From Methylacidiphilum kamchatkense Kam1 (GTDB taxonomy: Bacteria > Verrucomicrobiota > Verrucomicrobiia > Methylacidiphilales > Methylacidiphilaceae), in the NCBI RefSeq assembly GCF_007475525.1, contig NZ_CP037899.1, forward strand, positions 1,550,001-1,614,000: a stretch of 64,000 bases of DNA, read 5' to 3'. Under the pieces are notes generated by a model that was not told where the DNA came from, made no database searches, and was given only the letters and a program-made list of their open reading frames with translations. Made by a program: the position numbers and the translations under genes. Below, one piece after another: positions 6,722 to 40,878 of the stretch (position 1 is its first letter; every line of letters begins with the position of its first letter).

Positions 6722-9423
6722 GTGAAACCCAATGCTTTTCTCTTTTTGTTTAAGCAAACCAGAGAAGAAGTTCTCCTTCGAGCGCTATTCCCCATTCTTT
6801 TCCTCTATTTGATAGGCCTCATAGAAGTATCTTTTAGCCAGTCCACTGCTGATGGTCTGAATCTACCTCCGCTGCCCTCCTCCATCGATTCACAGCCGCA
6901 ACCTAAAGGATTGTCTCCTGAATCGAATCCACCTACAACAAATCCTGCAAACCAATCGAACCTCGCCCAAGAACAAAGAGAACAGTTGCTCCCATCGGCT
7001 CCTCGCCTTACCCCCCCACCCCACCCCAACCTCCTCCTGAGGAGGAACATCCTGTAGAGCAGGCTGAAAAGCCTGTCCCACAGGCAATACCAATCAAAAA
7101 AAAACCAAAAAAAATAGTTGGTCCTCCTAGTGGGGCTGAAAGCCAGAAGAAAGGACCAACAGTCAAAGAAATAGAGATCGTTTACGTCGGCCCCAAGTCC
7201 GTAAACCGGTCTATGATCCTTTCCAACATGCGCACAACGGTGGGACAACCCTATTCGGCAACAACCATCGAAGAAGATGTCAGAAATCTTTATGCCACTG
7301 GTCTCTTTACCAATTTGAGGATTACCACCGAAACAGTAGCCGAAGGAGTCAAGGTCATCGTTATCGTTCAACCTAAACCCCTAGTGAAAGAAGTCACCAT
7401 TCAAGGAGCAAAACAAATCCCAGTAGAAAGGATCAGAAAACAAGTTAAAACAAAGATTGGGGATCCTTTAAGTGAGTTTCAAGTCTCAGCCGATGCTGAA
7501 AAAATCCGGGAGTATTATCAAAATCATGGATTTGGCAATGCTCAGGTGACTTATAAAATAGATGTCAACGAAGAATTTGGCCGTGCCATCGTCAGCTTTT
7601 CCATTTCCGAAGGAGAAAAGCAGTTTATCGTTATGGTTAATTTTGTTGGGAATAAAGCTTTCAGCAATGCCGAACTACAAAAACAGCTCAAAACGAAAAA
7701 AAAGAACATTCTGTCTTTTGTTAATAAATCAGGGATTTTTAAAGAAGACCAACTACAGGAAGACCTAAGAAAGCTCAAAGAATTTTACCAGGATCACGGC
7801 TATATCGATATGCAAATAAAAGATGTCAAAATTTCTACCCCAGAAAAAGAAAAAATGGTGGTAACCATCAGCATTTTTGAAGGCATCCAATACAAAGTGG
7901 GAACCATACAATTTCAAGGAAATGTCATTTATCCTAATTCGGATCTACTCGACAGCATCAAAATGAAAGAAGGCAGCGTCTTTTCTCCAAAAGGACTAGA
8001 TGATGACATTAAAGCGATTCGTGATCTCTATGGCAAGCAAGGATATATTGATGCCGAAATAAAACCCGAACGACTAGCCAATATAGAAAATGGTAGGATT
8101 GATTTGCTTTTTAAAATCTCTGAAGGAAGCCAGGCCTACATAGATAAAATTATTATTCAGGGGAACAATCAGACCAAAGACAAGGTCATCCGCAGAGAGC
8201 TTGCCGTCACTCCAGGAGATGTGTATGACAGCGTTCGGGTGGAGGCAAGCAAGAAAAGATTAGAAAACCTCGGCTACTTTGAAAAAGTGGAAATAAATCC
8301 CCAAGACACCAACGTTCCCAACCGGAAAAACATGGTTATTTCTGTCCAGGAAAAAAGAACAGGAAATGTGACTTTTGGACTTGGATACAGCACCATTGAG
8401 AGCCTGCTTGGTTTTGTCGAGCTAAACCAAGGGAATTTTGACATCGCTAATCCCCCTTCCTTTACGGGTGCCGGTCAGAAATTCCGGTTTCGGTTGCAGC
8501 TAGGCATTTTTATGGAAAGTGCCATGCTTTCTTTCACTGAGCCGTGGTTTATGGATCAACCACTTATGGTTGGTTTCGATCTGTTTTTCAACCAACTTAC
8601 CTATCTGCAGTTTTATAACGGCTTTAACGAAACCCAGTATGGCTTAGACTTGCGCTTGGCCAAACGACTCAATCAATGGTTTACCCTGTCGACCCGCTAC
8701 GATTTTAATGTCTATGATCTGTGGGGCTACCTCCCAGAGGTAGAGAACATTCCCGTTTTTGCTCAGAACAGAGGATCGAGAACACAAAGCGATATCACCA
8801 TGGATTTGATTTACGATAGCAGAGATAGCGTCTTTGTCACCAGACATGGTACCTTCCTGGATTTCAATATCTTAGGCGCTGGGGGGCCACTCCTAGGCCA
8901 AACAGACATTTACAGACTACAATTGGATATATCCCATTTTGAAAATTTCCCTCTATGGGATATTATCATGTGGAATCATCTCACTACAGGATTTGTCCAA
9001 CAGTATGGGAAAAGCAGTTTCGTGCCCCTTTTTGATAGTTATTTTGTAGGTGGCCCTCGGTCATTGCGAGGATTCGATTATAATCTAGTCGGTCCTAATT
9101 ACCTGCCTTTGGATTTCCCCATCGGGGGCCAAACCATGGCGGTTTGGAACTTAGAGTTTACTTTCCCTGTAGTCGATCGAGTCAGATTTGCGGTTTTCAA
9201 TGATATGGGCTTTAATGCTGGATCCCTGATTGGACCCAATCAATATGTCCCTACTCCCTTTGTTGCTGGCCAAGGAATTAATATCGATGCCGATTATGGT
9301 TTTGGTTTAAGATTGTTTTTACCTATTGGCCCCCTACGATTGGACTATGGTATTCCTTATTTGAGACAGAGTTGGTTGAATAAAACGGGAAGGTTTTATT
9401 TTGATGTCGGCTATTCCTTTTAA
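6722..9423 (+). CDS. bamA: Outer-membrane assembly factor BamA, reading frame broken at a C7 run
   Basis: Inserts beta-barrel proteins into the outer membrane. The first frame starts at GTG 6722 (after AAAGGAAAG) with a signal peptide (VLLRALFPILFLYLIGLI) and a Pro-rich linker, and stops at 7057. The main frame is open from about 7000 through 9423: POTRA repeats starting VKEIEIVYVGPK, then a 16-strand-type barrel with the hallmark GGPRSLRGF. The two join exactly if the C run at 7011-7017 had eight C instead of seven, giving a continuous Pro-rich linker. BamA is essential, so an undercall or slippage is more likely than a dead gene. skp and lpxD follow, as in many Gram-negatives. Confidence 0.9.
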
Positions 9424-13923: not shown

Positions 13924-14042
13924 AATTCGATTGAGAAAGATTACTTTTTCCTTTTATTCTTTTCTTATGGATTAGATGACTATTCCTCCCTACGAGGATT
14001 ATTTATTGTTATTAATTCCATTATCTATTGTTTTTTTTACTT

Positions 14043-15409
14043 ATGACGTTAACAGAAAAGATACTTGCAAAAGCTAGCAAAAGATCGAAAGTCTCTCCTG
14101 GAGATAATATTTGGGTGGAGACCGACATTCTCCTTACACATGATGTTTGTGGGCCCGGAACCATTGGCGTCTTTAAAAGGGAATTTGGGAAAAACGCCCG
14201 CGTGTGGAATCCTTACAAAATCGTGATCATGCCCGATCACTACATTTTTACTTCCGATTCTCTTTCCAATAGAAATGTGGACATTTTAAGAGCTTTTGCA
14301 AAAGAACAGGGCCTTCCCTATTTTTATGACGTCATTGATGATCCCAATGGGAACTGGAAATTTGATCCTCTTAAAGGGCCCCTACGACGTCAGTACGGAA
14401 GGCATTATGCTGGTGTTTGCCATACCGCGCTTCCTGAAAAAGGCCATGTCCGACCTGGAGAAGTGCTCTTTGGAACCGATAGCCATACATGCACAGCGGG
14501 GGCTTTCAACCAGTTCGCAACGGGAATCGGAAATACGGATGCAGGATTTGTAATGGGAACCGGAAAACTGCTCATCAAAGTTCCTCCAACTATCCAATTC
14601 TATCTTGATGGAGAACTTCCAAAAGGAGTCATGGCCAAAGACCTCATCCTTTACATCATTGGGGAAATTGGGTTTGATGGAGCTACTTACATGGCCATGC
14701 AGTTTGAAGGCCCAGGAGCCTTTTCCCTCTCGATCGAAGACAGAATGACGATGGCGAATATGGCCATAGAAGCAGGCGCTAAAAATGGGATATTCCCAGC
14801 AGATCAGAAAACTATCGACTATGTCAATCAGAGGATTTTAAAGAATGGCACCAAAAAAGAATTCGAAATCGTTGAGTTAGAAAAAAATCAAAAGTTCTTT
14901 GCTTCTTACTCGATCGATCTTTCTAAGATTGAACCGACTGTGGCAGCCCCACCTAATCCAGCTAATAGATTTAAGGCTAAAGAACTGGCTTCCGTAAAAA
15001 TTGATCGCGCCTATCTCGGCTCTTGTACTGGAGGCAAGCTCACCGATTTTATTGCTTTTGCCTCGATTCTTAAAAACAATACGGTAAGCGTAGAAACTTT
15101 CGCCGTACCTTCTACCCCAGAAATCGTCGATCAACTCCACAAAATAGAGATGGAAGGACAAAGCCTGTGGGAAATATTAGTTCAGGCAGGAGTGAAAATT
15201 ACAGAAAATCCCTCCTGTGCAGCCTGTCTGGGGGACCAATGGACACCTTTGGGAGGGTTAATAAGCCGCTGGTGTGTATTTCTTCGACAAACAGAAATTT
15301 TCCTGGGCGGATGGGAGATAAAGCTTCCCTTGTTTATTTGGCTTCTCCAATGACGGTGGCGGCTTCCGCCATTAAAGGAAAAATTACGGATCCTAGAGAA
15401 TTTCTCTAA
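14043..15409 (+). CDS. leuC: 3-isopropylmalate dehydratase large subunit (aconitase family), frame broken at a G5 run
   Basis: Fe-S enzyme of leucine synthesis (or the related homoaconitase reaction), acting with a small subunit that is not in the window. Motifs: [10 protein letters not shown]-like start, [34 protein letters not shown] and SCAACLG supply the cluster cysteines. The first frame runs to a stop at 15353 with an unrelated tail. The family C-terminus ([35 protein letters not shown]) is in the next frame, ending 15409. One more G in the run at 15230-15234 joins them into a normal-length protein. ATG 14043 is preferred over TTG 14028. Confidence 0.85.
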
Positions 15410-21548: not shown

Positions 21549-23147
21549 ATGAGCAGAAAGAGGCTTTTTATTTTTTCTTTTTTTATTTTTCTTTTTTTTA
21601 CCATCCCTGCCTACTCTCAACAACCAGGTGGCTATCAACCCAATGGGTCTCTATCAGGGATCGATCCAAGTCTTGGTCCTCTTATCCAAAAAGTTTTTCA
21701 GTTTGGTCAGCAAGCTAGAGAAGAAGGCGAACAGATTGCAGTAAGCATCGCCCCTTTTTTATTTTTCATGGCAGCAGCCGTCGGAGGGTTTCGAGTGGCC
21801 TTCGGAAGACCCATTATCGATGAACTCATCGATTATACCATTCATGCAGTCGTGATTTGGATCGTTGTGTATGCACAATTTCCTCAGCACCTTATTGATG
21901 CCGCCAGGCAAGCCTTGATTCAAGGAGGACTCAACTGGGGAAAACAAATCGCTAACCTTGCCTTTGATCCACCTGCAGGGAGTACCCCAACCCAATGGTG
22001 GATATGTTGGATCCATGTGCCTCCGTCCAGTGGAGTTGGAGCTGTGGCTTCACCAGGAGGAGTGTGTCCGGGCAATATAGCCGATTTTAAATTTGGACCG
22101 ATCTTTGTAAGCCGCATGTTTGGACTGGCCAATAACTTGGCGATCTTTAATCCAGTGGTATACAAATATCTCAATCAAGCCTTTCAGGGACTTCTTTCAT
22201 GGATGGCTATGATGCCAAATGATATCAGTCCAGTTGCTTCTCAAACCGTAACTGCCATGCAGATCTGGGCGATACCCCTTATGACTTCTATCGGCTGGGT
22301 TTTTGCTCTTGTTTTAACAGCCGCTCTCCTTTGCATTGGAGCGATATTCACTATCATTTTTAGTCAGATCATATTGCTTGGGGGTAGTGAGGCAGCCTAT
22401 CAAGCCTTGACTGGGTTTGGGATTGCTCTGGTACCACTGACTTTTTTTGCTTCCTTCCGGGGTCTCTGGAGGCCAATGCTTATAGGCCTAGTCGCCGTAT
22501 CAATCGTTCCGCCCCTCTACTGTATCCTAGCCGGACTTGGGTATATGATGGCTGACATTATTTTTAATACCCTCTTTGGCATTAGTGTCAGCGGAGACAT
22601 GGGCTTTGTAGCTGGTGCCACAACTCTAGGAGCGATGGTTCCTATGATCATTGAAGCGACTATCGGCTGGCCGATTAACGGACTTAGCCTTTCCAACCTT
22701 TTTGGAGGCAGCGGAGGCGGCTTTTCAAGCCTCTTACAAGTCTTTCTCCAATCCATTCTTACCAATAACGGGGCTCCAGGAGGTATTCCGATTCAGCAAT
22801 GCCTTGAACAAGGTGCTTCGGCTAAAAGTTCCTTTTTGTGTGCGGTGGTCTATACTATTCTAGGGTTTTTACAGGCTTCAGGAGCCTGGGTGCTCTACTC
22901 CCTTGGCATAAACATTGTTGCCGCTTTTATCTATGCTGGTTCGATGTTCCCGCTGGTAGCCGTTCGAGTCGCTTATGGTTGGTCTTTAGCATTCTCAGAC
23001 ATGGCTGGCGCCTTGCTAGAAGGCTTTAGCGGGCATTTCGGCAGGGTGCACGGGGCAAGCATGGAAGGACTGCAGGGCGTTGGACAGAACATCCAAAGCC
23101 GAGTAGGAGGCGTCCTAAAAGCTATTGTTGGAAAGGAGTATAAATAG
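21549..23147 (+). CDS. TrbL/VirB6-like polytopic membrane protein
   Basis: The ATG at 21549 opens a signal-like peptide (RLFIFSFFIFLFFTIPAYS), then Gln/Gly-rich mature start and about six to seven membrane segments (ALVLTAALLCIGAIFTIIF, LIGLVAVSIVPPLYCILAGL). The layout, with a long central loop rich in Gly, Pro and Cys and a C-terminal soluble tail, resembles the VirB6/TrbL channel components of type IV secretion. No other T4SS genes are present, so it is an orphan. The frame is open back to 21450, but the start at 21549 gives a good signal peptide. A small secreted protein follows 13 bases later. Family call is tentative. Confidence 0.6.
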   Translation: MSRKRLFIFSFFIFLFFTIPAYSQQPGGYQPNGSLSGIDPSLGPLIQKVFQFGQQAREEGEQIAVSIAPFLFFMAAAVGGFRVAFGRPIIDELIDYTIHAVVIWIVVYAQFPQHLIDAARQALIQGGLNWGKQIANLAFDPPAGSTPTQWWICWIHVPPSSGVGAVASPGGVCPGNIADFKFGPIFVSRMFGLANNLAIFNPVVYKYLNQAFQGLLSWMAMMPNDISPVASQTVTAMQIWAIPLMTSIGWVFALVLTAALLCIGAIFTIIFSQIILLGGSEAAYQALTGFGIALVPLTFFASFRGLWRPMLIGLVAVSIVPPLYCILAGLGYMMADIIFNTLFGISVSGDMGFVAGATTLGAMVPMIIEATIGWPINGLSLSNLFGGSGGGFSSLLQVFLQSILTNNGAPGGIPIQQCLEQGASAKSSFLCAVVYTILGFLQASGAWVLYSLGINIVAAFIYAGSMFPLVAVRVAYGWSLAFSDMAGALLEGFSGHFGRVHGASMEGLQGVGQNIQSRVGGVLKAIVGKEYK

Positions 23148-23160
23148 GAAAAGACATGCC

Positions 23161-23817
23161 ATGACGATCCTGTTTTCCTTTTTTTTCCTTTATAATTATA
23201 TCGAATCAACCCATACCTATGCCAAGCTCTTCCTGACTAGAGAAAAAACCTACCCCTACGCCCTCACTCCCCACGTGTTTTTCGATCAAAAAGTCAATTC
23301 TTATGATAGTGGAGTCTTTCAAGCCTATATACCGGAAGATCCCAGATATCCGGCGTTATGGGCCAGGGCCTGGATTAATGGCCATCCACTGAGCATGAAA
23401 AAATATACTAGAGCGCAGGCAATTGGGACGGGTTTGGTTTCTCGGCATTCCAAATACGTCTGGCTTTCTGAGGAGTATACTGGCAGTGGGGAACTGCATA
23501 AACAGGCGGAGTTTGTCGTGCTGCCGGCAGAAGGCACCCAAAAAATAGATGAATACGTCTGTATCTTAAACTGGGATCACGTGGACCGGCCAATCGAAGA
23601 GGTGACCTTTACGATGGATCTTGGTGCCATCACTATGGCAATTCCTGGAATCGGTAGACAAAATAACCCTTTTTATGTCCAGTGGCTTTATGGCACCTTT
23701 TTCAGGCTAGAACCTCCCGGTTACCAAAGAGCCGGTAGCACCGTCAGCTGGCGCTGGACCCATATCTCAAGCATCGACCAGAAAATCCGCGTCCAATGGT
23801 ATGCCTGGTATCGATGA
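23161..23817 (+). CDS. Secreted protein of unknown family, paralog A
   Basis: 218 residues with signal peptide (MTILFSFFFLYNYIES). Start chosen at ATG 23161 with AGGAA 8 bases before, 13 bases after the TrbL-like stop, so the two are one operon. Shares with the gene at 26957: TYAKLFLTRE, HVFFDQ, LPEDP-type, YVWLSE, VLPAxxxxKIDE, IPGIG, and a common C-terminus IDQKIRVQWYAWYR. No domain recognised; possibly an adhesin-like or pilin-related extracellular protein, but that is speculation. Confidence 0.7.
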   Translation: MTILFSFFFLYNYIESTHTYAKLFLTREKTYPYALTPHVFFDQKVNSYDSGVFQAYIPEDPRYPALWARAWINGHPLSMKKYTRAQAIGTGLVSRHSKYVWLSEEYTGSGELHKQAEFVVLPAEGTQKIDEYVCILNWDHVDRPIEEVTFTMDLGAITMAIPGIGRQNNPFYVQWLYGTFFRLEPPGYQRAGSTVSWRWTHISSIDQKIRVQWYAWYR

Positions 23818-23822
23818 TTTAT

Positions 23823-39553: not shown

Positions 39554-40878
39554 ATGAGCCTGCCTTCTTCTTATTTCTTTTTTGAGCCAACCCCAACAAC
39601 CCTACCGCTCTTTATAGAGCGGGCTCAAGGCATTTATCTCTACACTAAAGAAGGCAAGGAAATTATTGATGCGGCTTCAGGGGCAGTTGTTGTCAATATT
39701 GGTCAAGGCAGAGAAGAAATCGCGGCAATAGCTCAGGAGCAAATAAAAAAACTAGATTATATTGTTCCCGTTTGGTTATCGGATGCACTCGCAGGGCTTG
39801 TTAAAAAATTATCCGAGTGGTTTCCAACCGAGCCTTATCGGTTCTACTTTACGGCGGGAGGCGCAGAATCTGTAGAAGCAGCGTTTCGTTTTGCTTTTTT
39901 GTATCAAGTAGCTGAGAATAAGCCTTGGAAGAACAAAATCCTTTCTCGTTGGACCTCCTATCATGGCATTACCCTTGGCGCTTTATCAGCTAGTGGCAAT
40001 CGGTTACGAAGAGAGCATTTGGAACACTGTCTCCTTGATTGGCCTAAAATCCCTCCTCCCTATTGTTATCGCTGTCCATGGACTAAAACCTATCCCTCTT
40101 GTGGTATTGCCTGTGCTCAGGCACTAGAGGAAGTGCTCCACTCCGAAACAGGCAATAGTATGGCTGCTTTCATTGCCGAACCTATTATTGGAGCTAGTGG
40201 CGGAGCGATTGTACCCGTTGAGGAGTACTGGCCTGCCATTGCGGAAATCTGTAAAAAACATGGCCTATTACTAATTGTCGATGAAGTGATGACTGGTTTT
40301 GGGAGGACAGGTAAACGCTTTGCTTTTGAACATTGGAAGCTTCGACCAGACATTATTGTCAGTGCAAAAGGCCTATCGGGGGATATATCCCCATGGGAAT
40401 GCTCGCTGTCAGAGAAGAGCTTGTCCAAAGATGTGAAAAAGTAGCAAAAAATTTCATGTTTTTTACCTATACTTCCCATCCACTAAGCTGTGCGATTGCA
40501 AAAAAAGTGATCGATATTTTGGAGGCGGAAAATCTTATTGATCACTCAATGAAAATGGGGGAGCTACTTGGCCAGTCCTTAAAAAACGAACTGGCGGATC
40601 ATCCTTTTGTTGGAGAAATACGCGGCAAAGGCCTTTTTTGGGGAGTAGAATTTGTAAAATCCAAAATCACCAAAGAACCTTTCCCTCCTGAAGAAGGCTT
40701 TTTAAACCGGTTCTTAAGAAAGGCGCTAGAACTTGGAGTATTTTTTTATCCTTGTCAAGGAATGGCTGACGGCTTTTCGGGTGAAGCGGTGCTAGTTTGC
40801 CCACCTCTTATCGTTAAGGAAGAAGATATTCTGAAAATCGTTGCTGTTTTAAAAGAATCCCTAAACCAACTGGTATGA
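39554..40878 (+). CDS. Class-III PLP aminotransferase, frame broken at a G5 run
   Basis: Motifs: TAGGAESVEAA, SYHGITLGALSASG, DEVMTGFGRTGK and SAKGLSGG with the PLP lysine. The first frame ends at 40444 in an unrelated tail. The family continuation (YIPMGMLAV, FFTYTSHPLSCA, GEIRGKGLFWGVEF) lies in the next frame and ends 40878. One more G in the run at 40378-40382 gives SAKGLSGGYIPMGM and a full 442-residue protein. Substrate class (ornithine, diaminobutyrate or similar) not decided. Beside an amino-acid permease, so uptake and breakdown of an amino acid is plausible. Confidence 0.8.

Follow-up and report, generated by a model that had tools for sequence, protein, structure and literature searches.

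A one-base split of bamA in the Methylacidiphilum kamchatkense Kam1 chromosome, probably due to a homopolymer undercall

The bamA locus in the deposited sequence

The region analysed is a stretch of 64,000 nucleotides of the M. kamchatkense Kam1 chromosome (NZ_CP037899.1, positions 1,550,001 to 1,614,000 of the forward strand), referred to below as the window. The gene for BamA is deposited there in two reading frames, parted at a run of seven C residues, in the context TTA-CCCCCCC-ACCCCACCCC. The features discussed are collected in Table 1. The translation of the upstream frame is 111 aa long and turns to nonsense past the C-run; its signal peptide was called by inspection only. The downstream ORF encodes 736 aa, and its frame is open over 833 codons, so that both frames overlap across the C-run. 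They are offset by one base, and a single additional C would make them one continuous frame. An earlier note, made from the sequence alone, had placed the split at this C7 run, with the two parts in the frames of 6722 and 7213, and the sequence, the ORFs and the TIGR03303 and Pfam matches all agree with it.

Table 1. Features of the Kam1 window, in window coordinates
Feature	Position	Strand	Basis
5' part of bamA in the deposited sequence, from a GTG start through the signal peptide and the Pro-rich linker; out of frame past the C-run	6722..7057	+	congener alignment
C7 run, one base short of the C8 of the sister species	7011..7017	+	sequence, congener alignment
3' part of bamA, with the POTRA domains and the Omp85 barrel; its start codon lies within POTRA1; frame open further 5' across the tract	7213..9423	+	profile matches
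Second split gene, leuC-like (3-isopropylmalate dehydratase large subunit family); its frame breaks within a G5 run, near 15229, and the C-terminus is read in that of ORF 15167-15409	14028..15409	+	
Third one-base loss, approximate site, within the orthologue of a 441-aa SolV ORF	40381..40385	+	

The identity of the gene was evaluated by profile matches. The Kam1 3' ORF scores 541.5 bits against TIGR03303 (BamA) and its orthologue in the congener SolV 549.6, with a cut-off of 297.15. Pfam POTRA and Omp85 are also matched by the Kam1 ORF, which has only four POTRA stretches because its ATG falls inside POTRA1, while five, together with Omp85, are found in the SolV orthologue. The start of POTRA1 (VKEIEIVYVGPKSVNRS) is conserved and lies upstream of ATG 7213, the earliest ATG, GTG or TTG codon of the downstream frame, which is thus internal to the domain. 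The earlier description of this ORF as the POTRA and barrel part is therefore supported by the profiles, with the minor correction that POTRA1 begins further upstream. A shorter functional BamA made from the internal start was considered and rejected, as the start lies inside POTRA1 and the product would have no signal peptide. A second, intact bamA, which according to the same note would have refuted its reading if this copy were truly disrupted, was searched for in the whole Kam1 genome, where a single Omp85-family match was found.

Two further traits of the locus may be described. The Pro-rich linker of Methylacidiphilaceae BamA (window 6722-7212 and the corresponding congener regions) is about 100 aa long or more, and is short in many other Verrucomicrobia compared. 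Two adjacent stable hairpins are located just 3' of the C-run (window 7030-7090), in a sequence largely kept in SolV and in the congener Yel.

The tract in congeneric genomes

In all of the four congeners compared, bamA is one open frame of 905-915 codons, and the signal peptide, out of frame with the barrel in the deposited Kam1 gene, is in frame. The break in Kam1 is therefore confirmed as real relative to its relatives. The comparison of related strains for C7 or C8, proposed earlier as a check, gave the following picture. SolV, the closest congener, carries C8 at the tract (it reads TTACCCCCCCCACTCC) and a 906-codon open bamA frame, in agreement with the prediction that C8 would join the two frames. 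Yel reads TTACTCCCCCCACTCC, in which the run is interrupted (TCCCCCC), and the two more distant congeners have CTCCTCC-type sequences without a long C-run. The C homopolymer is therefore not a conserved element in the genus, and the frame break is confined, among the genomes compared, to the Kam1 assembly.

The part of the gene following the break was compared between Kam1 and SolV over 736 codons. Synonymous changes were found at 98 codons and non-synonymous changes at 3, corresponding to a dN of 0.0023, a dS of 0.247 and a dN/dS of about 0.01. These values point to strong purifying selection on the 3' part, evidently as part of a working protein.

Slippage of the C-run in replication, by which a culture would be a mixture of C7 and C8 cells and the expression of bamA would be tuned, was weighed against this comparison. 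In other bacteria, phase variation is known to occur at G or C homopolymers (PMC3711429), and the tract length does differ between SolV and Kam1. The run is however short, and is interrupted or absent outside these two genomes; a conserved tract of variable length, as expected of a phase-variable gene, was not found across the four congeners. Moreover, cells in which the only BamA is switched OFF should not be viable, and deletions in many genes without any insertion, as described below, are not expected from slippage. Phase variation is thus regarded as very unlikely.

Alternatively, the C7 could be real and full-length BamA could be produced by recoding, through a -1 ribosomal slip on C_CCC_CCA or through RNA polymerase slippage on the C-run, with a downstream hairpin. 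The zero-frame codons ACC CCC CCA contain the formal C_CCC_CCA heptamer, which is listed among the E. coli motifs whose frameshifting exceeds 0.10% in the absence of stimulators (PMC4066793), and the 100 nt 3' of the tract fold better than their shuffles (z = -4.9). Yet slippage at a sub-percent level would be too little for an essential and abundant protein, and the hairpin sequence is common to SolV and Yel, whose frames are intact, the distant congeners having neither the tract nor the hairpin sequence. A conserved layout of slippery site and two frames, typical of programmed -1 frameshifting, is not present in the relatives, as one open frame is seen in 4/4 congeners. Recoding would be needed in the Kam1 assembly alone, where dozens of genes show the same defect without such a motif. 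A literature search at the title and abstract level found no proteomics of Kam1 BamA. This mechanism has to be considered extremely unlikely; if it were true, an essential outer-membrane gene would depend on recoding in one species only.

The comparison of the window with SolV also revealed a segment, about 1.2-1.8 kb long, that occurs once in Kam1 (window 22068-23820) and has blastn matches at about six successive places in SolV. The matching pieces lie between positions 23374 and 35235 of the joined SolV sequence, and the apparent tandem expansion in SolV overlaps the gene for a multi-pass membrane protein.

One-base deletions in the Kam1 assembly

Single-base losses were counted by aligning SolV ORFs to Kam1. 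The analysis covered 854 kb of the Kam1 genome and 880 kb of that of SolV, and yielded 574 aligned orthologues and 639 kb of coding sequence. Only isolated one-base indels were taken into account, and those closer than 20 codons to an end of the ORF were disregarded. Kam1 showed 59 interior frameshifting deletions of one base, in 56 genes, and no insertions, while the reverse census (Kam1 ORFs against SolV) gave 2 deletions in SolV. Runs of at least 4 identical bases were found in or beside 53 of the 59 Kam1 sites; as the nearest run was assigned automatically, and some sites adjoin substitutions, single sites may be off by 1-2 bases, with no influence on the direction of the effect. G or C runs of exactly 8 are absent from the 854 kb of Kam1, and number 9 in the 880 kb of SolV. 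For every 11 kb of compared coding sequence, the Kam1 reference therefore carries about one single-base deletion that breaks a frame.

The affected genes include, according to NCBIfam, those for GMP synthase (guaA), GTPase Der, prolyl-tRNA synthetase (proS), NuoH (with two breaks), malate dehydrogenase (mdh), 2-isopropylmalate synthase (leuA), transhydrogenase alpha (pntA) and PqqB; tblastn finds their Kam1 copies divided between frames. A single matching piece, covering residues 33-248, was obtained by tblastn for rpsB, which was left out of the confirmed splits. The leuC-like split of the window is of the same error class as that of bamA. A hydrogenase large-subunit gene, at about 2,126,504 of Kam1, is also split, being one base short relative to SolV, beside a G-run. 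As no other hydrogenase large subunit was found to be split, it is most likely the hyhL of the authors of the genome. They report that the hyhL frameshift of the chromosome does not occur in the 454 draft, and that it could stem from an error in sequencing or assembly (PMC6688271).

A true loss of function, in a hypermutating or decaying lineage really carrying these deletions, would account for their presence in the deposited chromosome. Nonsense changes, however, are not enriched in Kam1 relative to SolV (4 ORFs versus 7, among those without indels), no interior one-base insertion was found in Kam1, and the bamA barrel has the very low dN/dS given above. Indispensable genes are among those hit, and Kam1 grows in culture on methane, its sole source of carbon and energy (PMC6688271). 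The probability of this reading is negligible. The dozens of one-base losses would instead be assembly errors, because guaA, der, proS, nuoH and the like cannot all be lost by a free-living autotroph. The pattern found in Kam1, with an excess of deletions that fall at homopolymers and hit genes which have to be functional, is the one expected of undercalls in the assembly.

The Kam1 chromosome (closed, 2,202,032 bp) was assembled by HGAP3 from PacBio RS reads only, at 489x (PMC6688271), an earlier 454 draft being also available (JQNX01; PMC4358389). That SolV too is a PacBio/HGAP assembly is a point against an undercall, although SolV shows few such deletions and its sequence was set against Illumina and 454 data (PMC4210602). 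The Kam1 consensus would have lost single bases in a systematic way, for the most part in homopolymers, and at bamA one C of a C8 run. Literature searches on homopolymer errors of long reads yielded general background only. Coverage of 489x normally leads to a very accurate consensus, and this also counts against an undercall. Nevertheless, the gene is very probably intact in the organism, the deposited C7 being a one-base undercall of C8; this is supported by the single Omp85 match, the open frames of 4/4 congeners, the deletion-only census and the purifying selection. The presence of the missing C in the DNA of Kam1 cells we infer from this strong pattern, not from reads. Among the three options offered in the earlier note, the undercall is thus the one favoured by the deletion-only census and by the open congeners; a slippage tract used for tuning and a recoding site are unsupported, because the C-run is not conserved, the relatives are plainly open and the same loss occurs in about 56 unrelated Kam1 genes. 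The split almost certainly represents no biological novelty, and bamA would be an ordinary gene. For the split Kam1 genes (bamA, guaA, der, proS, nuoH and others) a check of the reads is needed before loss, recoding or phase variation is called.

Relation to known systems

The gene corresponds to BamA/YaeT of the Omp85 superfamily (TIGR03303; POTRA, PF07244; Omp85, PF01103) in its domain order, in the full-length profile match and in being single copy in Kam1. It is also followed, by inspection, by an OmpH/Skp-like and then an lpxD-like ORF, as in BamA/YaeT systems. It differs from the norm of that family in that the deposited Kam1 gene lies in two frames, and in the long Pro-rich linker that separates, in Methylacidiphilaceae, the signal peptide from POTRA1.

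In comparison with the hyhL of Kam1 (PMC6688271), the bamA break comes from the same assembly and consists of the same one-base loss at or beside a homopolymer, while a contradiction by the 454 draft has been published for hyhL only. More generally, the Kam1 losses resemble the residual homopolymer deletions of long-read assemblies based on a single technology, as they affect one base, mostly in homopolymers, in one direction and in unrelated genes; they differ in their rate, which is high for an assembly of 489x.
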